Shown here: piece by piece, positions 40,755-63,617 of the stretch | Position numbering within the stretch: the stretch's first letter is position 1 | How the letters are laid out: each line of letters opens with the position of its first letter | Source: Pseudomonadota bacterium | Lineage (GTDB): Bacteria > Pseudomonadota > Gammaproteobacteria > Burkholderiales > Burkholderiaceae_C | NCBI GenBank assembly: GCA_020161065.1 | Contig: JAIUPH010000007.1 | Location: 434,001 to 498,000 of the forward strand | Length of the DNA stretch: 64,000 nucleotides | Direction: 5' to 3' | Notes under the pieces: model-generated | Seen by the model: only the letters and a program-made list of their open reading frames with translations | The model's database searches: none | Told to the model about the DNA's origin: nothing | Position numbers and translations under genes: made by a program

Positions 40755-41099
40755 TTATCGGCGGTTCGACGGGTTGCGGCCGACGTACACGACGAAGGGC
40801 GTGCCAGCGAAGCCGGCCGGTGCGATCTGGCCGACATCGACGGACCTGCGGTCGAGCCCGTCGAAGGTCCACGAGAACTGCTTCGCGCCGCTGCGGAACG
40901 TCACGCTCTCGCCGTAGGCAACGTTGAGCCGGTCGGTGGACGCCAGGTCCACGACGCGCACTGGCGCGCCCTGCGCCGCCGGCTGCCCATAGATCGACTG
41001 GCCGTTCATGAACGTATTGCCGCTGGCGGCGAAGCCCGCGAGGGGAAGCACGGCCAGGGCAACGAGGGCAGCGGTGCGGAGTCGGCGAGTCGATTGCAT
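40755..41099 (-). CDS. CzcE-like periplasmic metal-binding protein
   Basis: The 114-residue protein starts MQSTRRLRTAALVALAVLPL, a signal peptide ending AGFAA. The mature part has VAYGESVTFRSGAKQFSWTF, DGLDRRSVDVGQIAPAGFAG, TPFVVYVGRN, which follows the CzcE layout (GE.V.F..G.K.F.W.FD .. L..IAP .. VYV). CzcE of Cupriavidus binds copper and zinc in the periplasm. AAAGGA precedes the start. Its promoter has the layout shared with the genes at 49,276 and 58,502. Confidence 0.75.
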   Translation of the reverse strand: MQSTRRLRTAALVALAVLPLAGFAASGNTFMNGQSIYGQPAAQGAPVRVVDLASTDRLNVAYGESVTFRSGAKQFSWTFDGLDRRSVDVGQIAPAGFAGTPFVVYVGRNPSNRR

Positions 41100-41168
41100 G
41101 TTCAGTCCTTTCGATGTGGGAGGGGTGCCGCCGGCGCGCGATCGCGCGCTGGGCCGGCATCGAAAGGA

Positions 41169-41227
41169 ACTGTAGAAACCGCTTTCCAACAGCCGCTGAA
41201 CGGGAACATGACAGCCTCGTCATGTTC
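41169..41227 (-). promoter_or_regulatory. metal-regulon promoter 1 (czcE-like gene)
   Basis: On the minus strand CTGTCAT (41,214-41,208) is followed by 15 nt, CTGTTG (41,192-41,187), 12 nt, and TACAGT (41,174-41,169), then a 69-nt leader to the ATG. CTGTCAT is part of a perfect dyad, GAACATGAC/GTCATGTTC (arms 41,204-41,212 and 41,219-41,227). Confidence 0.7.
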
Positions 41228-41241
41228 GCCGCGGCAGGGCC

Positions 41242-41685
41242 TCAGTGCGTACCGCGGATGTGGCGATGTGGCGACGCGGAAGTTGACTGAGCGGCGGCGG
41301 TGTCGAGCTCGTTCAGGATGCCGCACTGCTCGATCGCATGCGGCGAGCCGCACCTCGCGCGCAGCGCCTTCAGATCCTTCTGCAGCGTCCGAAGTTCGCG
41401 GATGCGGTGGGTGACGTGCCCGATGTGCTCGTCGAGCAGTGCGTTGACCTCGCCGCAGTCCTGCGAGGGCGCATCGCGCAGCCGCAGCAGCGTCCGGATC
41501 TCGTCCAGCGTCATGTCCAGGTTGCGGCAATGGCGGATGAACGCCAGCCGCTCGGCGTGGGCGGCCGTGTACACGCGGTAGTTGTTGTCTGCGCGCTGCG
41601 CCGCGGGGATCAGGCCCTCGCGCTCGTAGAAGCGGATGGTCTCGACCGCCGTGCCGGTCGATTCCGCCAGGTCGCCGATGCGCAT
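41242..41685 (-). CDS. cadR: Cd(II)/Pb(II)-responsive MerR-family regulator
   Basis: The 147-residue protein starts MRIGDLAESTGTAVETIRFY with the MerR helix-turn-helix and NNYRVYTAAHAERLAFIRHC. Metal ligands expected for CadR/PbrR are present: C77 (APSQDCGEV), C112 (ARCGSPH) and C121 (IEQCGIL). The His-rich tail SPHRHIRGTH resembles the second site of CadR. It is divergent from cadA and would distort the 19-bp-spacer promoter when metal is bound. Confidence 0.9.
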   Translation of the reverse strand: MRIGDLAESTGTAVETIRFYEREGLIPAAQRADNNYRVYTAAHAERLAFIRHCRNLDMTLDEIRTLLRLRDAPSQDCGEVNALLDEHIGHVTHRIRELRTLQKDLKALRARCGSPHAIEQCGILNELDTAAAQSTSASPHRHIRGTH

Positions 41686-41713
41686 CGTCTTTTTCCGTGG
41701 TGGATCGAGGGTC

Positions 41714-41744
41714 TTGACTCTACACCGACTTCAGGGTTTGCAAT
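41714..41744 (+). promoter_or_regulatory. MerR-type cadA promoter
   Basis: TTGACT (41,714-41,719) and TGCAAT (41,739-41,744) are 19 bp apart, the long spacer used by MerR-family regulators. The spacer holds an imperfect dyad around CTCTACACCGACTTCAGGG, the expected CadR/PbrR operator. Confidence 0.7.
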
Positions 41745-41771
41745 GGCGGCCATGAGTCAAGGAACGCACCC

Positions 41772-47033: not shown

Positions 47034-48434
47034 TCAATGCCCTGGAGAGCCGGTTCTTGCTGTGGAGGAGGTGGCCGGCGCCGACAAGCCGGTCTCGTCG
47101 GTCCCCGCGTCCCGCAAGCTCATGCCGATCGCCGAAGTCCCGCCTGACGAATTTGCCAAGGGCCGCCCTCCGTGCATGCGCGCGATGGCCGCAACGATGG
47201 ACAGTCCGAGCCCGTGGTTGCGATCGGCGTCGCTGCGGGAGGCATCGCCGCGGTAGAAGCGGTCGAACAGGCGCGGAAGATCGTCGGGCCCGATGGTGAC
47301 GCCGCGATTCACCACCTTCAACCGCACCTCGCCGGCCGCTTCAGCAGTGATCTCCACGCGCACGGTCGACCCGCGCTGCGCATAGCGCGTGGCGTTGCCG
47401 ATCAGATTGGACAGGGCGCGCTGCAGCAGCGGGGTGTCGAAGCTGCCCTCGGCATCGCCGACGATCTCCAGCGCCAGGCCGGCATCGACAAGTGCCGCCT
47501 CATGGTAGTTGCACACCTGCCGCGCCAACGCGGCGAGGCTCGGAGTCGGGACGCGTCGAGCTGAGGCGCCGCGATCGGCCTGCGACAGGAACAGCATGTC
47601 GTGCACGATGCTGGCGACGCGCTGCAGTTCCTCCAGGTTCGAGCCGAGCACCTCGCGCAGTTCGTCAGCGTCACGGGCTTTGCGCAATGCGAGCTCGGTG
47701 CTGCCGATCAGCGTCGCCAGCGGCGTGCACAGTTCGTGGGCCACGTCTGCGTTGAAGCCTTCCAGCTGAGCGTAGGCCAGCTCCAGCCGGCCGAGCAACT
47801 CGTTGAACTGCGCGATCAGCGGCTCGAGTTCCTCCGGCTGCGCGGAGCCGTCCAGCCGGCGATGCAGGGTATCGGCCGCGAGTTGCCGGGTCTGGTTCAC
47901 CAGATCGCGCAGCGGGCGCAGGCCAAGGCGCACGAGCACGAAGCCGCCGGCCGACACGAGCAGCGCGCCGGCGAGAGCGGCCACCGCGAGCGTGAGTCCG
48001 ATGCGGCGCAGCAGCGCGGCATCTTCCCGGATGTCCAGTGCCAGGACGGCATCGAGCGATCCTTGCTCGGGCGCCGGCGCAGGCAGTGCGAACCGTGCGA
48101 CGCGCACGTCGCCCGTCGGTGTTGGCGAGGAGCGCCGATAGAACTCCGATCCGTCGGCGGCGCGCGTCAGCGCCAAAGCCATGTCGGGATGGCCGATGAA
48201 GAAGTCGTCGAGCTTGTGCTTCAGCGTCGCCACGTCACCGTCGTGCGACGACTCCGCGAGCAGGTGGCGAAGCTGCACCTGCTTCTGCACCAGTTCCTCC
48301 GACTGGCGGGCCTGGAAGCCCAGATGCGTGGCGCCGTAGACCGCCGCACACACCACGACAAGGCCGGCCAGGCTCTGCAGGGCCAGCCAGTACGACAGCC
48401 GGCGGCCGAGCGACCCGATGCGGCTGCGGCTCAT
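47034..48434 (-). CDS. heavy-metal sensor histidine kinase
   Basis: From ATG at 48,434 the protein has 466 residues. Two membrane segments (about 15-40 and 145-170) border a periplasmic sensor domain. A HAMP region is followed by the H-box [18 protein letters not shown] (His233), the N-box [16 protein letters not shown], and [18 protein letters not shown]. This is the CusS/CopS/CzcS type. It overlaps the response regulator gene by 4 nt, so the pair is cotranslated. Confidence 0.9.
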
Positions 48435-49117
48435 TCGTCGCGTGACTCCATCACGTAGCCCATGCCGCGCACAGTGTGCAGCAAGGTGCGCTCGAAGGGC
48501 GCATCGAGCTTGTTGCGCAGACGGCGAATGGCGACGTCGATGACGTTCGTCGCGCTGTCGAAGTTCATGTCCCACACCTGCTCGGCGATCTCGGTGCGTG
48601 ACAGCACCTCGCCTTGCCGGCGCACGAACAGCGCGAGCAGGCCGAACTCTTGCGCAGTGAGCTCGAGTCGGCGGCCGGCGCGAACCGCCTTGCGGCGGAT
48701 CAGGTCGATCTCGAGATCCGCCAGCCCGAGCACGGTCGCGCCGTCGTTGGCGCGGGCAGGGCGTGCGCGGCGCAGCAGCACCTGGATCCGCGCCAGCAGT
48801 TCAGAGAAGGCGAAGGGCTTGACGAGGTAGTCGTCAGCGCCGCTCTGCAGCCCGCGCACCCGGTCCTCGACACGCACACGGGCGGTCAGCATCAGCACCG
48901 GCGTCTGCTTGCTCTGGCGCAACGCCGCGAGCAGGCCCAGGCCATCGATGCCCGGCAGCATGCCGTCGAGCACGATCAGTTCGTAGTCGGACTCCATCGC
49001 GAGGTGCAGGCCATCGACACCGTTGTGGGCGAGGTCCACCACGAAGCCTTCCTCGGTCAGTCCCTTGCGCAGGTACTCGGCCAGCTTGACCTCGTCGTCG
49101 ATCACCAGCAGCTTCAT
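48431..49117 (-). CDS. heavy-metal response regulator (OmpR family)
   Basis: The 228-residue protein starts [20 protein letters not shown] at 49,117. The receiver domain has Asp51 ([13 protein letters not shown]), Thr in MLTARV and Lys in [16 protein letters not shown]. The C-terminal winged helix reads [20 protein letters not shown] and [16 protein letters not shown]. It belongs to the CusR/CopR/CzcR group. It is the best candidate to bind the three shared promoters in the island. Confidence 0.9.
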
Positions 49118-49151: not shown

Positions 49152-49206
49152 CTGTCCAATCTGTCATTGGTTCGACCCGTTTCTGTTGGTGCGCGGTTTC
49201 TAGATT
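49152..49206 (+). promoter_or_regulatory. metal-regulon promoter 2 (DUF4148 gene)
   Basis: CTGTCAT (49,161-49,167), 15 nt, CTGTTG (49,183-49,188), 12 nt, TAGATT (49,201-49,206), then a 69-nt leader. An extra CTGTC lies 9 bp upstream (49,152-49,156). GCGGTTTC before the -10 is identical to promoter 1. Confidence 0.7.
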
Positions 49207-49275
49207 GGCGGTCATGCCGTCAGGCATCCCGCGGCAGGCTGCCTGCGGGAACTCCCCAGGAAAGGAATAGACACC

Positions 49276-49614
49276 ATGCGCTTCGACAAGTTCGCCATCG
49301 CCACCGTCGCCGCCATCTCCACCCTCTCGTTGCCCGGTCTGTCGCAGGCCGCGTCGACCTATCACGCCGCCGGCGGCGAAGCGGGGTTCACGTACCACCC
49401 GGATCACGCCACGAACGGCAAGGCACGCGCCGAGGTGCTGGCCGAACTCGAGGCCGCGCGCAAGGACGGCACGCTGGCGCTGATCCAGCGCGGTGCGCCC
49501 CTGCCGATCAAGAACGCCGGCCCGGCCAAGACGCGCCAACAGGTCATCGACGAGATGCGCAACGAGTCGCCCGAACAGCGTCGCGCGCGCATGGAACTGA
49601 CGGCCGGCGGCTGA
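49276..49614 (+). CDS. DUF4148 small periplasmic protein
   Basis: The 112-residue protein has a signal peptide (MRFDKFAIATVAAISTLSLP, ending SQA) and a mature helix region with KARAEVLAELEAARKDGTLA, the DUF4148 hallmark, and a C-terminal TRQQVIDEMRNESPEQRRAR. AAGGAA precedes the start. It is divergent from the response regulator and follows a promoter of the shared type. Function unknown; members are metal- or stress-induced in Burkholderiales. Confidence 0.85.
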   Translation: MRFDKFAIATVAAISTLSLPGLSQAASTYHAAGGEAGFTYHPDHATNGKARAEVLAELEAARKDGTLALIQRGAPLPIKNAGPAKTRQQVIDEMRNESPEQRRARMELTAGG

Positions 49615-51572: not shown

Positions 51573-51911
51573 TCAGTGGATGGGCGTCGCGCTGACCACA
51601 TCGATGACGGTGATCCATCCGGCGATCGCCTGGCCAGTGCGGGCGGCGTCGGTGAGCGCTGCCGAGAGGGCCTCGACCTCGCTGTCCTCGCACAGCAGCT
51701 CCAGCTTGTATTCGTTGACGACTTCGTCGCCGAGGTCCATCGCATAGTGCTTCTCGTCGCTGTCCAGCGGCAGCAGCGAGCCCTTCACGATGTAGACGGC
51801 GAGGTTGTGGCGGCGGCCTCCGCGGGCGCCGCCCCACGCCGGGCTGTCCTTCAGTGCCGCGATCACGTCGGCGATGCGGCTGCGATGCACGTAGGCCTTG
51901 ATTTCCTTCAT
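51573..51911 (-). CDS. PII-like signalling protein (czc-associated)
   Basis: The 112-residue protein starts MKEIKAYVHRSRIADVIAAL, then AVYIVKGSLLPLDSDEKHYA, LELLCEDSEVEALSAALTDA, GWITVIDVVSATPI, a ferredoxin-like beta-alpha-beta repeat as in PII/CutA trimers. No conserved T-loop Tyr is apparent. It overlaps the czcA stop by 4 nt. PII-NG type proteins adjacent to CzcA may sense nucleotides or metal to adjust efflux. Confidence 0.75.
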   Translation of the reverse strand: MKEIKAYVHRSRIADVIAALKDSPAWGGARGGRRHNLAVYIVKGSLLPLDSDEKHYAMDLGDEVVNEYKLELLCEDSEVEALSAALTDAARTGQAIAGWITVIDVVSATPIH

Positions 51912-54900
51912 GGCGTCTCCTGGGTGGGTTGCGGTAGCGCGACGCCTTGCGGTTGTTCGGCGTCTTCTTCGGCCGCGTCACGCGCGCGCTGTTTGGCTTC
52001 GGCGCGCGATTCCGACCATTCGTAGATCAGCGGCAGCAGCAGCAACGTCAGCAGCGTCGAGGTGATCAAGCCGCCGATCACCACGGTGGCCAGCGGGCGC
52101 TGGGTCTCGGCCCCGACACCTGTGGAAATCAGCATCGGCACGAGGCCGAGGATCGCCACCGAGGCCGTCATCAGCACCGGCCGCAGGCGCAGCGCGGCGC
52201 CCTGGCGCACGGCATCGCGTATCGACAAGCCGTGCTTGCGCTGGTCGTTGAGGAACGAGACCAGCACGATGCCGTTCAGCATCGCGACCCCGAACACGGC
52301 GATGAAGCCGATCGCCGACGGAACCGACAGGTACTGCCCGGTGATGAACAGCCCGACGATCCCGCCGATGATCGCGAACGGGACGTTCGCAATGATCAGC
52401 GTGGCGTGGCGTACCGAGTTGAACGCCGTGTACAGCAGGATGAAGATCAGGCCGATCGTGAGCGGGACGATGATGCCCAGTCGTTCCATCGCACGCTGCT
52501 GGTTTTCGAAGGCGCCTCCCCATTCCACCCAGTAGCCCGTGGGCATCTTGACTTTCGCCTGGATCGCGGCGTTCGCGTCCTTGACGAAGCTGTCGACGTC
52601 GCGGCCCTGCACGTCCATCTGCAGCACGGCGTAGCGCTGCAAGGCCTCGCGCCGGACGAAGGTGTAGCCCTCGGCAAGTTCGATCTTCGCCACCTGGGCG
52701 AAGGGCACGATCGCGCCTTCGGACGTGCGGATGGGAATGGCGGCGATGGCCGATGGGCTGTTGCGGAACTCCTCGGGCAGCCGCACCGAGATATCGAAGC
52801 GGCGTGTGCCTTCGATCAGCGTCGAGACAGTCTCGCCGCCGATGCCGGCCTGGACGATGGCCAGGATGTCGTCGGCGTTCAGGCCGTAGCGGGCCGCCGC
52901 CTGGCGATCCACCTTGATGACCATCTGCGGCTTGCCCTTGTTGGCTTCCGCCGACAGGTCGGCCACGCCGGGAACGCCACCGACCACGCCCTTGAGCTGC
53001 GCGGACAGCTCCTCGAGCTTGTCCAAATCCTCGCCGTAGACCTTCAGCGCCAGCGTTGCGCGCACGCCGGAGATCAGTTCCTCCACGCGCATCTGGATCG
53101 GCTGCGTGGCGCCGAAGACAGCGGTCTGCACCTCGCCTTCGAGGAATTCCTGCATCTCCCGGCCGAGAGCGGCATACGACTGCTTCGTCGGCCACTCGTC
53201 CTTGGGCTTCATGTCGAGCAGGACTTCCATGTAGTTCACATCGGCCGTCTCGCCCTTTTCGGCGCGGCCGATGGTGGCCAGCACCGAGTTCACCTGCGGG
53301 TACTTCTGGCGCAGGGCGGCGTCCATCACATTCGCCACGCGGACCGATTCCTCGAGCGATGTCGAGGGAATGCCGACGACGCGGAACATGATCGCGTCCT
53401 CCTGCAGCGTCGGCATGAACTCCTTGCCGAGCAGAGGGAAGAGGGCGAGGGCGCCGACGAGCAGTGCGATCGCCGCGCCGATGACGGTCTTCTTGCGGTC
53501 GAGCGCCCAGTCCAGCATCGGCAGGTAGAGCTTCTTCGCGCCGCGCACCAGCCAGGTGTCCTTCTCCTCCTTGGGCTTGAGGATCAGCGCCGCCAGCACC
53601 GGCACCAGCGTCAGCGACAGCAGCAGCGAGCCGGCCATCGCGAACGTGATGGTCAGCGCCATCGGTTTGAACAGCTTGCCTTCCAGCCCCGTCAGCGAGA
53701 ACAGCGGCAGGAACACGACGATGATGATCATGATCGCGAAGGCGATCGGGTTCGCCACTTCGCGCGCCGCTTCGAGCACCACGTGGGTCCGGTTGATCGG
53801 CCGGCCCGACTCGCGAGCATGCGCGAGCAGGCGGAAGGCGTTCTCCACCATCACCACCGCGCCGTCGACCATCATCCCGATGCCGATCGCCAGTCCGGCC
53901 AGCGACATCAGGTTGGCCGACATGCCGAAGCGCTGCATGCAGATGAACGCGAACAGCATCGCCAGCGGCAGCGTGACGATCACGACGATGGCGGAGCGAA
54001 ACTCGCCGAGGAACAGGAACAGGATCACCGCGACCAGGATCGAGCCTTCGATGAGGGCGTTGGTCGAGGTCGCCAGCGCCTTGTCGACGATCTCGGTGCG
54101 GTCGTAGGCCGCCTTCAGCTCGATGCCCTTGGGCAGCGCGGCTTGCGCGATGGCCAGCTTCTCCTTGACCGCCTTCACCACGGAGGCCGAGTTCTCGTGG
54201 ATGCGCGCCAGCGCGATGCCGAGCACGGTCTCCTGGCCGTTGCGCGTGACTGCGCCGAAGCGCACGGCCGGCGCCTCCTTGACGTCGGCGATGTCGCGCA
54301 CGTAGACCGGCGAGCCCTTGCGCTCGGCGACGACGATGGTGCCGATGTCGGCGGCGTTGCTGACCAGCCCCAGGCCGCGCACGAGGTACTGTTCGACGCC
54401 GATGTTCAGGAACTGCCCGCCGACCTGCTTGTTGTTGGCCGCCAGTCGCTCCATCACCTCCTTGAACGACAGCCCGTATTTGACCAGTCGCCGCGGGTCG
54501 ATCTGCACCTGGTACTGCTTTTCGTGGCCTCCCCAGGTCGTCACGTCATCGACACCCGCGGCCGTGCGCAGGATGAGCCGCACCGTCCAGTCCTGCAGCG
54601 TGCGCAAGTCCATCGCGCTGAGCTTCTTGTCGGCGTCTTCGATCGTGTACCAGAACACCTGGCCCAGGCCCGAGCTGTTGGGGCCGAGTTCGGGCTCGCC
54701 GTAGCCGGCGGGCAAGCGGCCTTTCACCTCCTGCAGCTTTTCACCCACCAAGCGGCGCGCGAAGTAGATGTCGACGCTGTCCTTGAAGTACACGCCGACG
54801 TAGGACAGGCCGAACAGCGAGACCGAGCGGACGACTTCCACGTCCGCCAGGCCCGCCATCGCGGCTTCGATCGGAACGGTGAGCAGCTTTTCGATGTCTT

Positions 54901-55075
54901 CGGCGGCGACGCCGGGGGACTCGGTGTAGATGTTCACCTGCGCCGGCGTCACGTCGGGGAAGGCGTCCACCGGCACCTGCCGGTAGGCCATGGCCCCGAG
55001 GCCGATGAGCACGGCGAAGGCCACCAGCACCAGCACTTTGTAGCGCAGGCTGGCATCAACGATTGCATTGAGCAT
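51908..55075 (-). CDS. czcA: heavy-metal efflux RND pump CzcA
   Basis: The 1055-residue protein begins MLNAIVDASLRYKVLVLVAF and has the twelve-segment RND layout with two large periplasmic loops (about 35-330 and 560-860). The transmembrane helix 4 motif reads GIGMMVDGAVVMVEN, of the CzcA (Co/Zn/Cd) rather than the CusA type. FPDVTPAQVNIYTESPG is the classic N-terminal block. It uses proton motive force to export divalent metal through CzcC. It is coupled to czcB (15-nt gap) and to the PII-like gene. Confidence 0.95.
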   Translation of the reverse strand: MLNAIVDASLRYKVLVLVAFAVLIGLGAMAYRQVPVDAFPDVTPAQVNIYTESPGVAAEDIEKLLTVPIEAAMAGLADVEVVRSVSLFGLSYVGVYFKDSVDIYFARRLVGEKLQEVKGRLPAGYGEPELGPNSSGLGQVFWYTIEDADKKLSAMDLRTLQDWTVRLILRTAAGVDDVTTWGGHEKQYQVQIDPRRLVKYGLSFKEVMERLAANNKQVGGQFLNIGVEQYLVRGLGLVSNAADIGTIVVAERKGSPVYVRDIADVKEAPAVRFGAVTRNGQETVLGIALARIHENSASVVKAVKEKLAIAQAALPKGIELKAAYDRTEIVDKALATSTNALIEGSILVAVILFLFLGEFRSAIVVIVTLPLAMLFAFICMQRFGMSANLMSLAGLAIGIGMMVDGAVVMVENAFRLLAHARESGRPINRTHVVLEAAREVANPIAFAIMIIIVVFLPLFSLTGLEGKLFKPMALTITFAMAGSLLLSLTLVPVLAALILKPKEEKDTWLVRGAKKLYLPMLDWALDRKKTVIGAAIALLVGALALFPLLGKEFMPTLQEDAIMFRVVGIPSTSLEESVRVANVMDAALRQKYPQVNSVLATIGRAEKGETADVNYMEVLLDMKPKDEWPTKQSYAALGREMQEFLEGEVQTAVFGATQPIQMRVEELISGVRATLALKVYGEDLDKLEELSAQLKGVVGGVPGVADLSAEANKGKPQMVIKVDRQAAARYGLNADDILAIVQAGIGGETVSTLIEGTRRFDISVRLPEEFRNSPSAIAAIPIRTSEGAIVPFAQVAKIELAEGYTFVRREALQRYAVLQMDVQGRDVDSFVKDANAAIQAKVKMPTGYWVEWGGAFENQQRAMERLGIIVPLTIGLIFILLYTAFNSVRHATLIIANVPFAIIGGIVGLFITGQYLSVPSAIGFIAVFGVAMLNGIVLVSFLNDQRKHGLSIRDAVRQGAALRLRPVLMTASVAILGLVPMLISTGVGAETQRPLATVVIGGLITSTLLTLLLLPLIYEWSESRAEAKQRARDAAEEDAEQPQGVALPQPTQETP

Positions 55076-55090
55076 GGTCCGTGGTCCTTC

Positions 55091-56323
55091 TCAATGCCCG
55101 TGGCCGAGCTGGGATTTCAGCTTGCGTGCCTTGAGCGCATAGGCTCCGGAGGTGACCACCTGGTCGCCGGCCTTGATGCCCGACTTGAGCAGCGTGCGGC
55201 CGCCCACCCGTTCACCCGGCTCGACCTGGCGCGCTTCGTACGCGCCTTGCTCGTAGACGAATACGGTCGGCTGGCCCTCGAGCAGCACGATGGCCGCGTC
55301 GGGCAAGCTGATGACATCACGCTTGTCGTCGCCCGCCTCGATGGTCGCGGTGGCGAACATCTCGGGCTTCAGGCGGCCGTCCGCGTTGGCGACCTCGATG
55401 CGGGCCGCGATCGTGCGGGTGTCCTTGTCGAGCATCGCGCCGATGTGGCCGACCCGCCCGCTGAAGGTCTCCCCGGGGTAGGCCGGCACCGTCACCTTGG
55501 CGTTGGCCCCGATGCGGACCTTGGCCAGCGCAGCCTCGGGCAGGTCGGCCTGGATCCAGACACGGCTCAGGTCGGCGATGGTGAACATCGATTCGCTCGG
55601 GCTGCCCAGTTCGCCCAGCGTCACTTTCTTCTCGATCACGGTACCGGCAAACGGCGCCGTGACGGCAAAGCCGGCGACGCCGCTGCCGCTGGCCGCTTGC
55701 GCGCCGCCGAGCAGGCGCAGCCGATCGGCGGCGTTGCGCACAGCGGCGGTCGCCTTGTCGCGGTCGGCCTGGGCGCGCAGGAAGTCCTTGCGCGGGATGA
55801 TTTCCTCCGCGTTCAGCGACTCGGCGCGCTTGAAGTCGGCATCGGCGATCCGCAGTTCGGCCTGGGCCTGGGTCCAGGTGGCATGAGCTTCAGCAACATC
55901 GACGCTGTCGAGCGTGGCCAGTGTCTGCCCGGCGCGCACGCGGTCACCCAGCTTCGCCGGGGCCGAAGTGATGCGGCCTTCGATTCGGGGTGCGACACGG
56001 GCCAGACGGTCCTGGTCGGGCCGGATCGTTGCGGTGACCTGAAGCGTCTCGCCAAGTGCTTCCGCCTTGATCGCTTCGACCTTCACGCCGGCGCGTTCCG
56101 CCTCCTCGGCGGTGAGGGTCAGTTCCTCTGAGCCTTCCTTGTGCTCGTCCTTCTTTTCGCCGGCATGCTCGGCATGTTTGTCGCCTTCAGCGGCGTGCTC
56201 GTCCTTGGCTCCGCCCTTGCCGCAGGCGGCAAGCGAGACAGCGACGGCCAGTGCCAGGGCGACTTTGGTCGCCAGCCCGGCCAGGCGCTTCGGACGCCCT
56301 GTGTCGTCTTGCAGCGTGATCAT
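55091..56323 (-). CDS. czcB: CzcB membrane fusion protein
   Basis: The 410-residue protein has a lipobox VSLAAC and a His/Lys/Glu-rich segment (EHAAEGDKHAEHAGEKKDEH) that may bind metal. The adaptor core follows: lipoyl halves VRAGQTLATLDSVDVAEAHA and VTAPFAGTVIEKKVTLGELG, a helical hairpin and the beta barrel. The His-rich N-terminus is of the CzcB type. The start overlaps the czcC stop (ATGA). Confidence 0.95.
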   Translation of the reverse strand: MITLQDDTGRPKRLAGLATKVALALAVAVSLAACGKGGAKDEHAAEGDKHAEHAGEKKDEHKEGSEELTLTAEEAERAGVKVEAIKAEALGETLQVTATIRPDQDRLARVAPRIEGRITSAPAKLGDRVRAGQTLATLDSVDVAEAHATWTQAQAELRIADADFKRAESLNAEEIIPRKDFLRAQADRDKATAAVRNAADRLRLLGGAQAASGSGVAGFAVTAPFAGTVIEKKVTLGELGSPSESMFTIADLSRVWIQADLPEAALAKVRIGANAKVTVPAYPGETFSGRVGHIGAMLDKDTRTIAARIEVANADGRLKPEMFATATIEAGDDKRDVISLPDAAIVLLEGQPTVFVYEQGAYEARQVEPGERVGGRTLLKSGIKAGDQVVTSGAYALKARKLKSQLGHGH

Positions 56324-57594
56324 TGCGAGGTTCCTTCCCGCGACCAGCCGGCCGCGTTTTCGAGTTCGATTCGGGTGGTGTGGAATTCGGCCAGCGCGTC
56401 GTTCAGATCGCGTTCGGCGTCCAGGGCCTGGCGATTCACGAGCAGTTGATCGAGCAGGCCGATCTGGCCGGCCTGCCGCGACTTCGCGGCGAGTTGCTGG
56501 TTGTCGGCCGAGGCGGCGACCATCGCGCGCTGCAGGCGCGCCACGCGCTCGCGCTGGCTGTCGAGCCGGCTCCAGAGGCGCCGCACCTGGGCCTGGCCGT
56601 CGCGCGTCGCGGCGGCACGTTCGATTTCAGCCTGCGTTGCATCGCTCATGGCCTGGCCGATGGCCGCGTCGTTGCGCTTGAAGAGCGGCAGCGGCACGGA
56701 AAGGGTCAGCGTGGTGACGCGCTCGCGACCGTCGGCCGGACCCTCGCGGCCGACGTTCAGCCCGACCGTCACGTCCGGGTAGCGGCTGGCCCGCTCGACG
56801 CCGACCCGTGCGCGGGCGGCGTCTTCGCGTGCAGCCAGCGCGCGCTGCCTGGGCAAGGCCTGCGCCGATGCGAGCAGTTGATCGAGGCCATAGGGCAGTG
56901 GCGCGCCATTCGGCACGCCGAGGTCGCCGATCACCTCCGGCACGGCGGACGGCGGCAACTGCAGGGCTGTGGCGAGGTCGGCCTTGGTGTCCTGCAGATG
57001 CTCTTGCGACACCGCCAGCGCATTGCGGGCGCGTTCGGCCTCGATCAGGGCGACGTTGGCATCCAGGCGGGTGTCCTCGCCCGCGCTGCGCCGCCTGGCG
57101 ACGGCCTGCGCAGTGCCGTCAAACAACTCGACCGAACGCTGTTCGAGCCGCACCCGCCGCTGCGCGGCAAGCACGGCGTGGAATCGCAGCGACGCTTCGG
57201 CGCGTGCCTGGCGCCGCGCATCTTCGATCTCGGCGCGCAAGGCCTCCAGCGATGCGGACGCGGCCTCGCGGCGGCGCGCCTGCTGGCCACCGATCTCGAT
57301 CGGCTGCGCGATGCCCAGGCCCCACTCGCGGGCGTTGCCATCGGGAGTCGCGGCGCTGCGTCGCGTGCGCTCCACGCTGAGCTCGGGGTTGTTGAAGAGC
57401 AGTGACGCGGCTTCGCGGCGGGAGCCTTCGGCGGCCACCAACTGGGCCTCGCGCGCACGCACGGTGGGGCTGGCGGCTTCTGCCAGCCGCAGCGCCTCCG
57501 CAAGCGTCAGCGGGCCCGAGCCCGCGGTCTGCGCACTCGCGGGAACGGTCGAGGCAGCCAGCACGAAGGCCAGCGCCAGGAGTGGGAATCGCAT
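56320..57594 (-). CDS. czcC: CzcC outer membrane efflux protein
   Basis: The 424-residue protein has a signal peptide (MRFPLLALAFVLAASTVPAS) and the duplicated OMF layout: LTLAEALRLAEAASPTVRAR and ELSVERTRRS, GLGIAQPIEIGGQQARRREA in the first half, DVTVGLNVGREGPADGRERV and LSVPLPLFKRNDAAIGQAMS in the second. It is the outer membrane channel for the CzcBA pump. Confidence 0.95.
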   Translation of the reverse strand: MRFPLLALAFVLAASTVPASAQTAGSGPLTLAEALRLAEAASPTVRAREAQLVAAEGSRREAASLLFNNPELSVERTRRSAATPDGNAREWGLGIAQPIEIGGQQARRREAASASLEALRAEIEDARRQARAEASLRFHAVLAAQRRVRLEQRSVELFDGTAQAVARRRSAGEDTRLDANVALIEAERARNALAVSQEHLQDTKADLATALQLPPSAVPEVIGDLGVPNGAPLPYGLDQLLASAQALPRQRALAAREDAARARVGVERASRYPDVTVGLNVGREGPADGRERVTTLTLSVPLPLFKRNDAAIGQAMSDATQAEIERAAATRDGQAQVRRLWSRLDSQRERVARLQRAMVAASADNQQLAAKSRQAGQIGLLDQLLVNRQALDAERDLNDALAEFHTTRIELENAAGWSREGTSQ

Positions 57595-57655
57595 CGAATC
57601 ATCCTTCTGGTCTCACGACAGAAGCGATTCGCCGGCGATGTGGAGATGTTGTCAG

Positions 57656-58066
57656 TCAGTCCGCGAGCGAGACCATCACCACGTCGCCGCCGGATCGCGC
57701 GGCAGGGATGGAGTGGGCTCGATCCGGGCGCAGGGGGCTGGCCGGAATGTGGGAGTCGTAGCGGGGTTCTGGCTGCCGCATGGCGTCGCCATGCGGCAGA
57801 GCGTCGACAGCGGAGGTTGGCGCGGGCATGAACGCGGAACAGCCCAGATGGCAGGTTTCGCAGTCCGTGTGATATGCGCCCGCAGTGTCGTCAGCATCTT
57901 GGGCGGCCGAGGCGATCTCGCCATCGGCCTGATGCTTGTGTTCATGGTGGCCGAAGTGCTTCTTGGTCGAGACACCGGTTTCGTGCGCGCAATACGGTGC
58001 CGCCGCGCCCCAGACCAACTGAAACGGCACGACGAACAACAGAAAAGCGAACACCCAACGACGCAT
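57656..58066 (-). CDS. czcI: CzcI-like periplasmic metal-resistance protein
   Basis: ATG at 58,066 gives 136 residues. A signal peptide (MRRWVFAFLLFVVPFQLVWG, ending AAA) leads to PYCAHETGVSTKKHFGHHEH and YHTDCETCHLGCSAFMPAP. The His cluster and CETCHLGC signature match CzcI. CzcI precedes czcCBA in Cupriavidus metallidurans and influences its expression. A TAGAAT -10-like box occurs before the start. Confidence 0.9.
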   Translation of the reverse strand: MRRWVFAFLLFVVPFQLVWGAAAPYCAHETGVSTKKHFGHHEHKHQADGEIASAAQDADDTAGAYHTDCETCHLGCSAFMPAPTSAVDALPHGDAMRQPEPRYDSHIPASPLRPDRAHSIPAARSGGDVVMVSLAD

Positions 58067-58214
58067 GATTGAGATTCTAGACTGGCAGTGTCTGGCCCGG
58101 CCCACGGCACTGGCGGGTCAAACCGCGACATTTTCCGATTCAGCATGGGCTGCTGCTTCGAGCTTGGTTGATTCGAGCGCTCCGAAACCGGTCCGGCCGG
58201 GGAGCGGCCCTGGT

Positions 58215-58502
58215 TCAAAGCCGCTTGGCGAACGCCATCGGGATGCCAGTCAACGCCCGATCGGACGCTGATGTCCGGTCGGACTGCGTCGAAACGCCGT
58301 GACGTGTTGCCATGGCCATGGGGACTCCCGAGAGCGTCGTCGGCCGCGTCAGGCCGTCGGAAGGCGTGCGGGTGTCGAGCCGTTTGGCGACGTTCATCGA
58401 GACGCCGGTGAACGGCACATCCGACGCCGCAGGCGCTGCGTGCGCGTAGGTGCCCAGCGTCAGCGTCAGGGCAAGGGTCAGAATAAGGGCAGTGAATTGC
58501 AT
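58215..58502 (-). CDS. 95-residue periplasmic protein with triple repeat
   Basis: ATG at 58,502 starts a signal peptide (MQFTALILTLALTLTLGTYA, ending HAA). The mature part has three near repeats: FTGVSMNVAKRLDTRT, LSGVPMAMATRHGVST and LTGIPMAFAKRL (consensus (T/S)G(V/I)(S/P)MxxAxR). The Met and His residues may bind copper. The promoter has the shared layout found also at 41.2 and 49.2 kb. No family recognised. Confidence 0.6.
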   Translation of the reverse strand: MQFTALILTLALTLTLGTYAHAAPAASDVPFTGVSMNVAKRLDTRTPSDGLTRPTTLSGVPMAMATRHGVSTQSDRTSASDRALTGIPMAFAKRL

Positions 58503-58576
58503 GGGGATCTGTCCGGCAGGACGGGGCGCCGACACGCAGCGGTGCCGAACCCGCGTCGGGTTTGGAGACCGGCCGC

Positions 58577-58631
58577 AATCTACGGAGCCGCAATCAACAG
58601 AACTCTGTCGGGAACATGACAGGCCTGTCAT
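58577..58631 (-). promoter_or_regulatory. metal-regulon promoter 3 (95-residue protein gene)
   Basis: On the minus strand CTGTCAT (58,622-58,616), 15 nt, CTGTTG (58,600-58,595), 12 nt, TAGATT (58,582-58,577), then a 74-nt leader. CTGTCAT is half of a perfect palindrome, ATGACAGGCCTGTCAT (58,616-58,631). CGGGAACATGACAG (plus strand 58,609-58,622) is identical to 41,201-41,214. Confidence 0.7.
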
Positions 58632-58749
58632 CTTTCGTCGCCGCACGTTTGAGTCGATGACACGGTATCGTGCGAACTCGCGGCTTTCGACCTTCTGGCG
58701 AACGGGTCACCGTGCTCCGCAAAGTGACGGGCTGCTGTAAAGTTCAGGC

Positions 58750-59190
58750 ATGGGTTTGTTGATCAGAACGCTTCTGATTTGGTTGCTGGTGTTGGCGGTT
58801 CCTGCGCAAGGGGCTGCTGCCGCGACCATGGCGTTTTGCGGCCCGAATCACCATGGTGGCGAGTCGACGTCGACGCGCTCCGAACTGAGTTCGAACGCTT
58901 CCGAGCATTCGCATCATGGCGATGCTGCGCCTGCGCATGAGGTCGATGCAGACGCAGCGGCCGATGCGGCCATCGCTGACGATGCGTCGATGATGGTGAA
59001 GGCTGGCCATGCGGCCAAGCAGAAGTGCAGCGCCTGCGCCTCCTGCTGCTCGCTGGGCGCCATCCTGACCACGGTGCCGGTCATTCCGGTCACCGACTCG
59101 GCTCCGACGGTGTTCGCCACCGTCGTGCCGACCGTCGACGCATTCGCCGCCGACGGACCTGACCGTCCTCCTCGAAACGTCCTCGCGTAA
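58750..59190 (+). CDS. His/Cys-rich metal-resistance protein (DUF2946-like)
   Basis: The 146-residue protein has an N-terminal signal or anchor (MGLLIRTLLIWLLVLAVPAQ) and His-rich segments (CGPNHHGG, SEHSHHGDAAPAHEVDADAA), then QKCSACASCCSLGAILT, a Cys cluster typical of DUF2946-type proteins in copper and Co/Zn/Cd clusters. It probably binds metal at the periplasmic side. It is divergent from the repeat protein and is the first gene of the copper module. Confidence 0.65.
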   Translation: MGLLIRTLLIWLLVLAVPAQGAAAATMAFCGPNHHGGESTSTRSELSSNASEHSHHGDAAPAHEVDADAAADAAIADDASMMVKAGHAAKQKCSACASCCSLGAILTTVPVIPVTDSAPTVFATVVPTVDAFAADGPDRPPRNVLA

Positions 59191-59300
59191 CTGGCCCGGG
59201 CTGACGCGCGTGTAGCGACGCGCGGCCCTGCGCCAGGTGCCGTTCCGTCCCCGCCGCGGCTGCGGCAGGGGGCGTCCCCAGACGTTCACGCGAGGATTTC

Positions 59301-59693
59301 ATGGTCCCAATCCCCACGCTCCGACGCAGGCCGCGCGCCCTGCCGAGCCTGCTGTTGACGGCGCTCCTGGCCGCGCAGGCACAGGCGCAGCCCACCACCA
59401 CTACCACCGTCCGCCCTGATCCGCTGGACCCGAAGGCCCAAGTGCCCGCGATGCGCTACGAGTCGTCGCTCGGGCAGTCTCGTCGCATCGGCGATGACAA
59501 GCCCGTGGCCTGGCGCGAAGCCAACGAGGCCGTCGCTCGCATCGGCGGCTGGCGGGTTTATGCCCGCGAGGCACAGCAACCCGATGCCCCTCCGACGACA
59601 CTGCCGGCGGTAGCTCCGGCGCAGTCTCCGGCGTCGACGCCGGCGGCCACCACGAAGCCGACGCCTGCCGGTCATGGTGGTCACAAGCCATGA
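59301..59693 (+). CDS. periplasmic protein of copper module
   Basis: The 130-residue protein starts MVPIPTLRRRPRALPSLLLT with a signal peptide ending AQAQA. The core DPKAQVPAMRYESSLGQSRR, WREANEAVARIGGWRVYARE recurs upstream of TolC-type genes in such clusters. A Pro/Ala/Thr tail and GHGGHKP end it. Function unknown; metal binding by the terminal His is possible. It overlaps the next gene by 4 nt if translation begins at 59,690. Confidence 0.6.
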   Translation: MVPIPTLRRRPRALPSLLLTALLAAQAQAQPTTTTTVRPDPLDPKAQVPAMRYESSLGQSRRIGDDKPVAWREANEAVARIGGWRVYAREAQQPDAPPTTLPAVAPAQSPASTPAATTKPTPAGHGGHKP

Positions 59694-59704
59694 AGGGCGG
59701 CGCA

Positions 59705-61147
59705 ATGAACGACGACATTCACGGCCCTTCGAAGCCGAGACGCGAACGCCGCCCGCTCCGCTTGTGGACACTGCTGGCCTCTGCCGCCCTGCTGGGCGGC
59801 TGCGCCAGTTTCAGCCCGGACGGTGGATTCGGCGCGGTGGAACAGACCGCCAAAGAACGGATCGGCAAGGACCTGCGCTGGGCGCGTACCGATGCCGACC
59901 GGGACAGCATCGACAAGCGTGTCGCGGAGTTGCTGGCCAAGCCTCTCACGGTGGATGACGCCGTGCAGGTCGCCTTGCTCAACAACCGCGGGCTGCAGGC
60001 CGACTTTCAGGAACTCGGCATCACCGAGGCCGAGGTCGTGCAGGCCGGACGCCTGCCGAACCCGGGCTTCAGCTTCGGGCGCATGAGCCGGGGTGACGAA
60101 CGCGAGATCGAGCGTGGGCTCCACTTCAACCTCGCGCGCCTGGTCGCGATGCCGCTCATCGGAAAGATGGAAGCGCGGCGTTTCGAGCAGACGAAGGCCC
60201 GCGTGGCGATGAGCGTGCTGGCACTGGCCGCCGACACGCGCAAGGCCTACTTCACCGCCTTGGCGGCGGAGGAGTCCGTTCGCTACATGCGGCAGGTGAA
60301 GCAGGCGGCCGATGCGAGTGCCGAACTGGCCCGGCGCATGGAGCAGGTCGGCAACTTCAACAAGCTGCAGCGCGCGCGGGAGCAGGCGTTCTACGCCAAC
60401 GCCGCCTTGCGCTTGGCCCAGGCGGAGCAGACGCAGCGGTCGACCCGCGAACGGCTGGTGCGCTTGCTCGGCGTCTGGGGGCCGCAGACCCAGTTCGCCT
60501 TGCCCGAGCGCCTGCCGGACGTGCCGACCTCGCCAGTCGAACTGCAGGACATCGAGCAGGTGGCATTGGCGCAGCGTCTGGACGTGCAGGGCGCCAAACT
60601 GGCGGCGCAGCAGACGGCAAGCAACCTCGGCCTGACGAAGACGACCCGTTTCGTCAACGTGCTGGAACTCGGCTTGCTGCGCAACAGCTCGAACGAGGCA
60701 CCCACGCAGCGCGGCTGGGAGATTGGCCTCGAGTTGCCGCTGTTCGATTGGGGCGGCGCGCGCGTCGCGCGTGCCGAGGCGGTGTACATGCAGACGCTGC
60801 ACCGCGCCGCGGAGACCGCGATCAACGCGCGGTCCGAGGTGCGCGAGGCCTACATGGGTTATCGCTCGGCCTACGACATCGCGCGTCACCACCGCGACGA
60901 GATCGTGCCGCTGAACCAGCGCATCGCCGAAGAGAACGTGCTTCGCTACAACGGCATGTTGATCGGCGTCTTCGAACTGCTCGCCGATGCCCGCACGCAG
61001 ATCGCCAGCGTCAACGCCTCCATCGAGGCGCTGCGTGATTTCTGGATCGCGCAGGCCGACCTCGACATGGCCCTGATCGGTAAGCCCAGCCTGAACGCCG
61101 CAGCGGGCCCCGCGATGGCGGCCGAAGCCGCCGGCGCAGGTCATTGA
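59705..61147 (+). CDS. TolC-family outer membrane efflux lipoprotein
   Basis: From ATG at 59,705 (AAGGGCGG upstream; an ATG at 59,690 is an alternative) the protein has 480 residues. After the signal region the lipobox LLGGC occurs. The OMF halves read LTVDDAVQVALLNNRGLQAD and NLARLVAMPLIGKM, then LELGLLRNSSNEAPTQRGWE and IGLELPLFDWGGARVARAEA. It is not accompanied by an RND pump, so it may work with CzcBA or a pump elsewhere, or serve periplasmic copper export. Confidence 0.85.
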   Translation: MNDDIHGPSKPRRERRPLRLWTLLASAALLGGCASFSPDGGFGAVEQTAKERIGKDLRWARTDADRDSIDKRVAELLAKPLTVDDAVQVALLNNRGLQADFQELGITEAEVVQAGRLPNPGFSFGRMSRGDEREIERGLHFNLARLVAMPLIGKMEARRFEQTKARVAMSVLALAADTRKAYFTALAAEESVRYMRQVKQAADASAELARRMEQVGNFNKLQRAREQAFYANAALRLAQAEQTQRSTRERLVRLLGVWGPQTQFALPERLPDVPTSPVELQDIEQVALAQRLDVQGAKLAAQQTASNLGLTKTTRFVNVLELGLLRNSSNEAPTQRGWEIGLELPLFDWGGARVARAEAVYMQTLHRAAETAINARSEVREAYMGYRSAYDIARHHRDEIVPLNQRIAEENVLRYNGMLIGVFELLADARTQIASVNASIEALRDFWIAQADLDMALIGKPSLNAAAGPAMAAEAAGAGH

Positions 61148-62589
61148 ACATGAAGGACTCTCACATGCTTTCCCGACGCAAGATGCTCGGCGGTGCTGGA
61201 GCCATCACAGCCGCCGCTGCCGCCGCCTCCGTCAGCAAAGTGGCCATGGCCGCACTGCCCGAGCCGGTCATCCAGACCAAGCCCGACACCATGCCGCCGC
61301 TGGTGCCGAACACAGGTCGCCCCTACAACCCCGTTGTCACGCTCAACGGCTGGACGCTGCCCTGGCGCATGAACAACGGCGTCAAGGAGTTCCACCTCGT
61401 CGCGGAGCCCGTGGTGCGCGAGATGAGCCCGGGCTTCAAGGCGCACCTGTGGGGCTACAACGGGCAGAGCCCGGGGCCGACGATCGAGGTGGTCGAAGGC
61501 GACCGCGTACGCATCTTCGTCACCAACAAGCTCGGCGAGCTCACCAGCATCCACTGGCACGGCCAGCGCCTGCCGAACGGCATGGACGGCGTGACAGGGC
61601 TGAACCAGCCGGGCATCGCACCCGGCAAGACCTACGTCTACGAGTTCGTTGCACGCCGCCCGGGCACCTTCATGTACCACCCGCACGCAGACGAGATGGT
61701 GCAGATGGCGATGGGGATGATGGGCTTCTGGATCACGCATCCGAAGGCGAAGCACCCGCTGATCGACGAGGTTGACCGTGACTTCGTGTTCCTGCTCAAC
61801 GCCTACGACATCGATCCCGGCGCCTACACGCCCAAGATCATGACGATGCTGGACTTCAACCTGTGGAGCTGGAACAGCCGCATCTTCCCGGGCATCGACC
61901 CGCTGGTGGTCAGGCACATGGACAAGGTGCGCATCCGCATCGGCAACCTGACGATGACCAACCACCCGATCCATCTGCACGGGCACGACTTCCTCGTCAC
62001 GGGCACCGACGGCGGGCCGACGCCCAAGTCCAGCCGGCAGTACGAGGTGACGACCGACGTTGCGGTGGGCCAGATGCGCCAGATCGACTTCCTGGCGGAC
62101 GAGGAGGGCGACTGGGCCTTCCACTGCCACAAGAGCCACCACACGATGAACGCGATGGGCCACGACGTCCCGACCATGATCGGCGTGGACCACCGCGGCG
62201 TGGCCAAGCAGATCACGAAATTGATCCCCGACTACATGGTGATGGGCGAGCGCGGCATGAAGGACATGACCGAGATGGAGATGCCGCTGCCCGACAACAC
62301 GGCCGCGATGATGACGGGCACCGGTCCCTTCGGCGCCGTCGGCATGGGCGGCATGTTCAGTGTCGTCAAGGTACGCAAGGACCAGAAGCCAGGCGACTAC
62401 GCCGACCCGGGCTGGTTCAAGCACCCGCCGGGCACGGTGGCCTACGAGTTCACGGGCGCGCTGCCCGACCCGGCGCGCTTCAAGGCCGACGCCAGCCCCG
62501 GGCCTGGCTCCATGCCACCAATGGCCAAGCCGTCGAAGGAGGTCGAGGTCAAGGTGCGCAAACCGGCGGGCGGCCACGGCGGCCATTGA
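61144..62589 (+). CDS. periplasmic multicopper oxidase (CueO-like role)
   Basis: The 481-residue protein starts MNMKDSHMLSRRKMLGGAGA, a Tat-like leader (SRRKM). All copper sites are present: HWHGQ and YHPHAD in the first domain, HPIHLHGH and HCHKSHHTMNAMGH in the last, i.e. HCH-x3-H-x4-M. An extra His and Met surround the type 1 site, and the C-terminus ends GGHGGH. It would oxidise Cu(I) to the less toxic Cu(II). It overlaps the TolC gene by 4 nt. Confidence 0.9.
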   Translation: MNMKDSHMLSRRKMLGGAGAITAAAAAASVSKVAMAALPEPVIQTKPDTMPPLVPNTGRPYNPVVTLNGWTLPWRMNNGVKEFHLVAEPVVREMSPGFKAHLWGYNGQSPGPTIEVVEGDRVRIFVTNKLGELTSIHWHGQRLPNGMDGVTGLNQPGIAPGKTYVYEFVARRPGTFMYHPHADEMVQMAMGMMGFWITHPKAKHPLIDEVDRDFVFLLNAYDIDPGAYTPKIMTMLDFNLWSWNSRIFPGIDPLVVRHMDKVRIRIGNLTMTNHPIHLHGHDFLVTGTDGGPTPKSSRQYEVTTDVAVGQMRQIDFLADEEGDWAFHCHKSHHTMNAMGHDVPTMIGVDHRGVAKQITKLIPDYMVMGERGMKDMTEMEMPLPDNTAAMMTGTGPFGAVGMGGMFSVVKVRKDQKPGDYADPGWFKHPPGTVAYEFTGALPDPARFKADASPGPGSMPPMAKPSKEVEVKVRKPAGGHGGH

Positions 62590-62625
62590 CCACTGATAAG
62601 CATCCCCCACTCGAAAGGACATCCC

Positions 62626-63138
62626 ATGCACCACAGCAAGCGTCAACTGCTCCTCGCCATCCCTGCCACCCTGCTCGGTGCCTCCGGGCTGGTGCGGGCG
62701 CACGGCGACGAAGACCACCCCAAGAAAGCCGGTCCGGTCAAGAAGGAGCAGAAGGACTGGGGCATCGCCGGCGATGCCAAAAGCGCCAAGCGCAGCATCG
62801 AGGTCGGCATGGCCGACAACATGCGATTCACTCCGGACAAGATCGCCGTGCGACAGGGCGAGACGGTGAAGTTCGTTGCGCGCAACACCGGCAAGGTGAT
62901 GCACGAGTTCGTCATCGGCACCAAGGCCGAGAACGGCAAACACGCTGAGATGATGGTGAAGTTCCCGACCATGGAACACGACGAGCCGTACATGGCCCAC
63001 GTGCCGCCCGGCAAGACCGGCGAGATCGTCTGGACCTTCAACCGCGCCGGCGAATTCGAGTTCGCCTGCCTGATCGCCGGTCACTACCAGGCCGGGATGG
63101 TGGGATCGATCACGGTGGCGGCGGCGGGCAAGGCATGA
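62626..63138 (+). CDS. cupredoxin (plastocyanin-like) periplasmic protein
   Basis: The 170-residue protein has a signal peptide (MHHSKRQLLLAIPATLLGAS, ending VRA) and a Lys-rich linker. The cupredoxin domain (about 60-168) has the ligands His in VMHEFVIG and C-x4-H-x4-M in FACLIAGHYQAGM. It probably donates or accepts electrons or copper for the adjacent multicopper oxidase. It overlaps the DUF411 gene by 4 nt. Confidence 0.9.
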   Translation: MHHSKRQLLLAIPATLLGASGLVRAHGDEDHPKKAGPVKKEQKDWGIAGDAKSAKRSIEVGMADNMRFTPDKIAVRQGETVKFVARNTGKVMHEFVIGTKAENGKHAEMMVKFPTMEHDEPYMAHVPPGKTGEIVWTFNRAGEFEFACLIAGHYQAGMVGSITVAAAGKA

Positions 63139-63617
63139 AGCGGCGTCGCGCACTGGCTTCGCTGCTCGGCGCTGCCGGGTGGCTGTCGATTCCCACTGCT
63201 CTGCAAGCGCAGAGTTCCGCGGTGCGGGTCGAGGTCTGGAAAAGCCCGACCTGCGGGTGTTGCAAGGACTGGATCACCCACCTCGAAGCCAACGGCTTCC
63301 AGGTCAAGGTCAACGATGTCGGCAACACCGCGGCCCGCGCCCGGCTGAAAGTGCCCATGAAGCTCGGTTCGTGCCACACAGCGTGGGTTGGCCGCTACGC
63401 CATCGAGGGGCACGTACCGGCGGCCGACATCCACCGTCTGCTGAAAGAGCGCCCCGACGCCATCGGCCTGGCCGTTCCCGGCATGCCGGTCGGCTCCCCA
63501 GGGATGGATGGTCCCGCCTACGACAACCGGCAGGACCCCTACGACGTGCTGCTGATCGCCCACGACGGCAGCACCCAGGTCTTCAACAGCTACTTCAAGC
63601 AAAAGGAACGTTCATGA
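63135..63617 (+). CDS. DUF411 metal-binding protein
   Basis: The 160-residue protein has a signal peptide (MKRRRALASLLGAAGWLSIP) and the DUF411 core: VWKSPTCGCCKDWITHLEAN with the CGCC metal site, MKLGSCHTAWVGRYAIEGHV and a C-terminal GMPVGSPGMDGP. DUF411 proteins are small periplasmic thioredoxin-like copper/silver binding proteins. It overlaps both neighbours by 4 nt. Confidence 0.9.
   Translation: MKRRRALASLLGAAGWLSIPTALQAQSSAVRVEVWKSPTCGCCKDWITHLEANGFQVKVNDVGNTAARARLKVPMKLGSCHTAWVGRYAIEGHVPAADIHRLLKERPDAIGLAVPGMPVGSPGMDGPAYDNRQDPYDVLLIAHDGSTQVFNSYFKQKERS

Follow-up and report, generated by a model that had tools for sequence, protein, structure and literature searches.

The E. coli CusR box has been given as AAAATGACAAnnTTGTCATTTT, and CopR, CusR and CzcR are described as cross-regulating at one site in Pseudomonas (PMC11195947); CzcR of P. 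aeruginosa is reported to have another motif, GAAABCTWHGVGYAAY, which is equally long (PMC13209446). Upstream of E. coli K-12 cusC, ATGACAATTTTGTCAT is followed by GTCA at +11 and by TAAAGT at offset 33 (that is, 33 nt downstream), and the regulator gene is divergent. AgrR of Cupriavidus metallidurans acts, according to footprint, interference and mutant data, on an inverted repeat combined with in-phase direct repeats at promoters with a poor −35 element (PMC7380067). The AgrR operators described there are 16-bp 6-4-6 sequences (ATKACANNNNTGTMAT) in which the promoter-proximal arm is better conserved, and they are accompanied by in-phase direct half-sites and a reasonable −10 box (PMC7380067). 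In the cop cluster of C. metallidurans, a 37-bp motif, a putative CopR1 site, is placed about 50 bp upstream of most starts (PMC7563307), and the czcP and czcN promoters of this organism are stated to need CzcR (PMC10127602). Direct half-sites 11 bp apart also make up the PhoB boxes of E. coli phoA, where two good direct repeats stand without an inverted upstream arm and the response is to phosphate.

The window considered here, a stretch of 64,000 nucleotides from a Burkholderiales genome of 6.29 Mb, holds three promoters that match the metal-regulator on-switch known from copper and zinc resistance genes elsewhere, so that their kind is already known. Very probably, they are activator-dependent σ70 promoters of one metal regulon, switched by the CusR-class regulator encoded at 48431-49117. 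The genes concerned are as follows.

40755-41099, minus strand: czcE-like gene (PF16986, E 3.2e-19), downstream of copy 1
41242-41685: cadR-like gene, upstream of copy 1
47034-48434, minus strand: cognate heavy-metal sensor kinase (TIGR01386, 346.9 bits, cutoff 292.55)
48431-49117, minus strand: heavy-metal response regulator, CusR/CopR/SilR subfamily (TIGR01387, 307.6 bits, cutoff 279.2)
49276-49614, plus strand: DUF4148 small protein gene (PF13663, E 6.9e-9), downstream of copy 2 and divergent from the response regulator gene
51908-57594, minus strand: czcC-czcB-czcA efflux operon (OEP, HlyD_D23, ACR_tran; CzcA above the cutoff of TIGR00914)
57656-58066, minus strand: czcI-like gene (NF045614, 99.4 bits, just below the cutoff of 100)
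58215-58502, minus strand: gene for a 95-aa putative exported protein, downstream of copy 3 and the first gene upstream of czcI-czcCBA

An initial annotation of the window had reported three exact copies of one promoter pattern with identical spacing, and a pattern search for CTGTCAT-N15-CTGTTG-N12-TAnAnT located all three, at 41214-41169 (minus strand), 49161-49206 (plus strand) and 58622-58577 (minus strand). With up to two mismatches allowed in the 13 fixed bases, CTGTCAT-N15-CTGTTG matched the window four times, against 0.75 ± 0.77 in 100 shuffled windows, none of which reached four matches. The genome-wide search that the annotation had proposed was also run; it returned only the three exact sites in 6.29 Mb and one further site with one mismatch on a different contig, and the reversed control pattern gave 0 in the same genome. 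When the −10 box was included and one mismatch tolerated, the search of the organism's own genome found exactly the three window sites, and seven more sites were found in 4 of 99 other genomes, all four of the same genus (reversed control, 0 in the own genome and the 99 others). The elements of each copy are listed below.

Copy 1, 41208-41223, minus strand: predicted operator, 6-4-6 inverted repeat ATGACGAGGCTGTCAT, in which 5/6 arm positions pair; predicted position −61 to −46
Copy 1, 41197-41202, minus strand: middle half-site CGTTCA, degenerate, at the in-phase position known from other sites
Copy 1, 41186-41191, minus strand: third half-site TGTTGG, 22 bp from TGTCAT
Copy 1, 41169-41174, minus strand: −10 box TACAGT, 4/6 to TATAAT, invariant in six aligned promoters
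Copy 2, 49152-49167, plus strand: predicted operator, right arm TGTCAT intact, left arm CTGTCC degenerate (3/6)
Copy 2, 49173-49178, plus strand: middle half-site CGACCC, degenerate
Copy 2, 49184-49189, plus strand: third half-site TGTTGG
Copy 2, 49201-49206, plus strand: −10 box TAGATT
Copy 3, 58616-58631, minus strand: predicted operator, perfect 6-4-6 inverted repeat ATGACAGGCCTGTCAT (6/6 arm positions)
Copy 3, 58605-58610, minus strand: middle half-site CGACAG, degenerate
Copy 3, 58594-58599, minus strand: third half-site TGTTGA
Copy 3, 58577-58582, minus strand: −10 box TAGATT

Judged by its sequence, the main operator takes the form of a 16-bp inverted repeat, ATGACnnnnnTGTCAT, with CTGTCAT as its promoter-proximal (right) arm; this is the operator type of the CusR/CopR/AgrR heavy-metal response regulators. 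The annotation had read CTGTCAT and CTGTTG as a pair of direct half-sites; their 22-bp phase holds, but the direct pair gives way to the inverted repeat as the main operator. CTGTTG is better taken as an additional putative half-site, two turns of the helix further on; a degenerate half-site lies between the two at +11. TGTTG stands at +22 bp in 3/3 copies, the +11 and +22 phasing occurs at other loci too, and in aligned homologue promoters ATGACnnnnnTGTCAT is followed by TGTYGG 22 bp after TGTCAT and then by TAnAnT. The palindromes earlier noticed around CTGTCAT in two copies are borne out in copies 1 (5/6 arm positions) and 3 (6/6), with 3/6 in copy 2. Against the AgrR-type consensus ATKACANNNNTGTMAT, copy 3 is a full match and copy 1 has one change; copy 2 has an intact right arm and three changes in the left. 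Among 13 aligned promoters orthologous to copy 2, the left arm is good, (A/G)TGAC, in eight and CTGTC(C/G) in five (its own included), and in six aligned czcE promoters both ATGAC and GTCAT are invariant. The likeness to cusC is one of repeat, +11 half-site, offset and divergent regulator gene; cusC differs in that it has no clear half-site at +22 (AATCAG) and belongs to a copper/silver system, not to a czc-type cluster. AgrR differs in that its box is centred near −43.5 or slightly further upstream, whereas the window copies are predicted at −53.5, and in that it is reported to act unphosphorylated in a silver-resistant mutant (PMC7380067).

The −10 boxes of the three copies match TATAAT at 4/6 positions, and no −35 hexamer was found in any of them (at most 2/6 matches at the spacers of 15-19 examined), which supports the annotation's view that the promoters would be activator-dependent. 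The start codons of copies 1, 2 and 3 lie 69, 69 and 74 nt from the respective −10 boxes, and transcription is predicted to begin near 41162, 49213 and 58570. What had been called a 69-74-nt leader is correct as this distance and about 6 nt too long as an RNA leader, since with the −10 box placed at −12 to −7 the RNA leaders come to about 63, 63 and 68 nt. No Rfam match up to E 1 was found between 40500 and 59500 that would place a known RNA element in the leaders. Folding of leaders relative to shuffled sequences was modest: z was below −2 in 5 of 23 (L097, L099, L107, L108 and L114) and ran from −1.95 to +0.84 in the remaining 18, in a scored set that includes identical pairs (L107 = L108), leaves out L102, L122 and L124, and contains four leaders (L093-L096) that are too short because of a wrong start codon. 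In the DUF4148 leaders (49207-49275, plus strand, and relatives L091-L107), a hairpin CATGCC-N4-GGCAT(G) is possible at the predicted start in 12 aligned leaders, L107 having an altered version, TGTGCC-CATC-GGCACA, shifted by one nucleotide, so that two of the aligned pairs differ on both sides and two others are disrupted. In the czcE leader (41168-41107, minus strand), an inverted repeat CCTTTCGATG...CATCGAAAGG, the 5′ arm of which begins upstream of the predicted start site, spans most of the leader and covers the AAGGA ribosome site; for the fold of alignment A2 the covariation term is unfavourable (+3.5), which leaves this stem unsupported by covariation. In the reverse direction at copy 2, which would serve autoregulation of the regulator gene, no −10-like box was seen by eye at the expected place.

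The annotation had placed a small periplasmic protein gene behind each promoter. CzcE (PF16986) and DUF4148 are matches at the family level, the 95-aa protein has no Pfam or NCBIfam match, and the putative periplasmic location was read by eye from the N-termini. The 95-aa protein was matched in 4 of 80 other genomes of the genus, in two of the four weakly; by eye, (S/T)G(V/I)(S/P)M-x-x-A(K/T)R(L/H) can be read in it three times as an imperfect repeat. Copy 3, this gene, the czcI-like gene and czcCBA follow one another on the same strand, and no terminator-like site was found between the 95-aa gene and czcI, the sole one in 57600-58750 overlapping the copy 3 operator; read-through from copy 3 into czcICBA is possible. 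Divergent from copy 3, at 58750-63976 (plus strand), lies a copper cluster with a CopL/CzcI-like protein (below cutoffs), an outer-membrane efflux protein, a multicopper oxidase and a CusF-like protein. For the cadR-like gene next to copy 1, the likely MerR/CadR-type operator would lie in the 41686-41771 gap towards a P-type ATPase.

The earlier assignment of these metal-regulon promoters to the response regulator at 48431-49117 remains the best one, as the protein scores above the curated cutoff of TIGR01387, and this regulator is likely the activator of all three. Its identity is 58% with E. coli CusR, 64% with the regulator of the C. metallidurans cop cluster and 59% with C. metallidurans CzcR, and its DNA-binding region is well conserved relative to the E. 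coli and C. metallidurans regulators; the closest plasmid-borne regulator among the matches listed, from Aquincola tertiaricarbonis, is 83% identical. The genome encodes a second heavy-metal regulator (C33:336622-337305, about 97 kb before the window) that is 67% identical, has nearly the same DNA-binding region and could bind the three promoters too. By eye, its gene adjoins a gmk-like gene. An inverted repeat two changes from the consensus lies beside it (L160:5491-5506), and TAnAnT is absent at offset 33 from this repeat in the flanks examined.

Conservation was followed in 32 upstream regions of homologues (17 of DUF4148, 10 of CzcE and 5 of the third gene), a set that includes the window's own copies and two identical pairs and is without the matches L103, L104 and L120. 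The layout, with no more than 5 of 17 fixed bases changed, is present in 25 of the 32, and in those 25 the next-best place within the same 300 nt has 6-9 changes; the rows that do not have it (4/10 CzcE, 2/5 third-gene and 1/17 DUF4148) are all among the more distant homologues. In the alignment of 13 DUF4148 promoters, the columns of TGTCAT have a mean identity of 1.00, those of TGTYGG 0.92 and those of the −10 box 0.87. The left arm and the middle half-site both average 0.77, the stretch before the −10 box 0.71, and the 5′ flank and three remaining spacers 0.51-0.63. The alignment of six CzcE promoters says less, because these are closer relatives and their spacers are conserved as well (up to 1.00). 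Across 81 genomes of the genus, a 45-nt version of the layout occurs at 28 sites in 17 genomes (reversed control, 0), and a homologue of the regulator (E ≤ 1e-60) was found in 42 genomes when candidates, at most 36 per genome, were scored. On that scoring all 17 layout-bearing genomes have a regulator homologue and none of the 39 regulator-less genomes has the layout (one-sided p 2e-6, relatedness ignored); where the regulator is at least 80% identical, 11/11 genomes carry the layout. Five further layout sites of the genus were looked at, three of which (L134, L136 and L147) precede proteins that by eye resemble DUF4148, of 155-161 aa, exported-looking and with repeated GGEAG-type motifs. This suggests that DUF4148-like exported-looking proteins are frequent targets of the regulon.

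The spacing was also examined in 87 named loci (80 genome contigs and 7 plasmid stretches, the window excluded), which span Burkholderiales, Pseudomonas and others and may include the window's own genus; most were fetched by regulator similarity, so that their link to the regulator is not independent. Searched with the published AgrR consensus at no more than one change, 43 of the 87 contain 54 inverted repeats, or 108 readings when each is read both ways. TAnAnT lies exactly 33 nt downstream of 26 of the 54; for the other 28 it does not, and the layout is not universal. Removal of near-duplicates dropped 5 readings, and in the remaining 103 TAnAnT occurs at offset 33 in 22 readings from 17 loci, compared with one at offset 32, none at 34 and on average 0.1 per remaining offset, apart from a second, smaller peak of five at offset 22, one helical turn closer. 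In columns that played no part in the selection, 20 of the 22 offset-33 sites have G at +11 and 21 have it at +22, compared with an average of 5.9 for other spacer columns, which indicates that the common operator is an inverted repeat with two in-phase direct half-sites. A scan of the named loci and the window for the full layout (no more than 5 of 21 fixed positions changed) gave 42 matches, three of them the window's, and one for the reversed pattern. The layout is not special to the present locus and recurs in other Proteobacteria.

Published transcription starts allow the predicted position to be compared directly. At czcJ of C. metallidurans, the operator centre lies exactly −53.5 from TSS_85892, which scores low (17 ± 5) and has a second czcJ start listed beside it (Table 4, PMC9045368). 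Of the five czc-region starts examined (two for czcJ and one each for czcP, czcE and czcI), one agrees with −53.5; at czcE the box is weaker, with its centre at −44.5, and the sequences upstream of czcP and czcN yielded no offset-33 site. At copA1, the copper-only start at 191,243 is reported as validated by 5′ RACE (PMC7563307), and the start predicted from the layout, 191,245, is 2 nt from it; the operator there has three changes from the consensus and the box is TACTCT, not TAnAnT.

The Pho motif of E. coli is likewise CTGTCAT (PMC4415409), and the boxes were for this reason also examined as possible Pho boxes, PhoB-bound 11-bp direct repeats just upstream of the −10 element. At phoA, 10 nt separate CTGTCAT-AAAG-TTGTCAC from TATAGT, which puts these half-sites within 1 bp of where the two direct half-sites lie here, and doubled CTGTCAT with no more than 3 of 14 changes has 78 places in the organism's own genome, copy 3 among them, against 25 for the reversed control. 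This explanation is nevertheless mainly rejected and very improbable: the best conserved elements are TGTCAT, its inverted arm and the half-site 22 bp on, whereas a Pho box would have two well-conserved 7-bp direct repeats 11 bp apart beside the −10 box, and the half-site at +11 from CTGTCAT is degenerate in 3/3 copies, only copy 3 reaching 3 of 14 changes. All three sites precede metal genes, one of them beside a metal two-component system, and the layout tracks the metal regulator, as the genus comparison above shows (17/17 against 0/39 genomes, at most 36 candidates scored per genome). What the phoA comparison does suggest is that the tandem part of the operator, its half-sites being within 1 bp of those bound by PhoB, replaces the −35 element. 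It is scarcely plausible that the identical layout merely reflects recent duplication of one promoter without functional constraint. Copies 1 and 3 do have CTGTCATGTTCCCG in common, and copies 1 and 2 GCGGTTTCTA; yet the downstream genes belong to different families where assigned, in the DUF4148 promoters it is the shared columns that are conserved, with flank and spacers varying, and other genera show this geometry too.

A subtler alternative leaves the operators as described and assigns the main activation to another regulator of the same class, for example the 67%-identical paralogue at C33:336622-337305, or to both. The presence of this paralogue, the near identity of its DNA-binding region and the cross-regulation described for CopR, CusR and CzcR at one Pseudomonas site (PMC11195947) speak for it. 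We regard it as unlikely, however, as copy 2 lies within the divergent intergenic region of the regulator gene 48431-49117 and the layout is present in all 11 genomes with a regulator at least 80% identical.

The assignment of the three promoters to the regulator at 48431-49117 is founded on features of the DNA, namely operator type, phasing, spacing, the missing −35 element, conservation and co-occurrence with the regulator; binding, phosphorylation, subunit arrangement and inducing metal are what we infer from them. Periplasmic metal would be sensed by the kinase encoded at 47034-48434, which would phosphorylate the response regulator. A regulator dimer would then occupy the 16-bp inverted repeat, from about −61 to −46, and further subunits would settle on the two half-sites in phase with it, a weak one near −40 to −35 and TGTTGG near −29 to −24. 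The bound subunits would stand in for the absent −35 hexamer and bring RNA polymerase to TAnAnT, as PhoB and AgrR do, and expression of czcE, of the DUF4148 gene and of the small gene in front of czcICBA would be turned on.

Three separate transcription units of the metal island would thereby be tied to one regulator, with their starts predicted to the base, and the distance from inverted repeat to −10 box would serve as a rule for finding part of the metal regulons, small exported-looking proteins such as CzcE and DUF4148 included. A broader and somewhat doubtful generalization, which we put forward tentatively, is that heavy-metal regulators from E. coli to Burkholderiales share one preferred geometry, with the repeat at −53.5 and two 11-bp-phased half-sites reaching to about −24. 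No statement of this layout as a family rule was found in the open-access literature searched, and its fixedness may, tentatively, be a new finding. If the generalization is true, the inverted dimer and the tandem pair act together, the tandem pair replacing the −35 element in the manner of PhoB; the operator would then be a hybrid with a stereotyped position, and metal regulons would be predictable from sequence alone.
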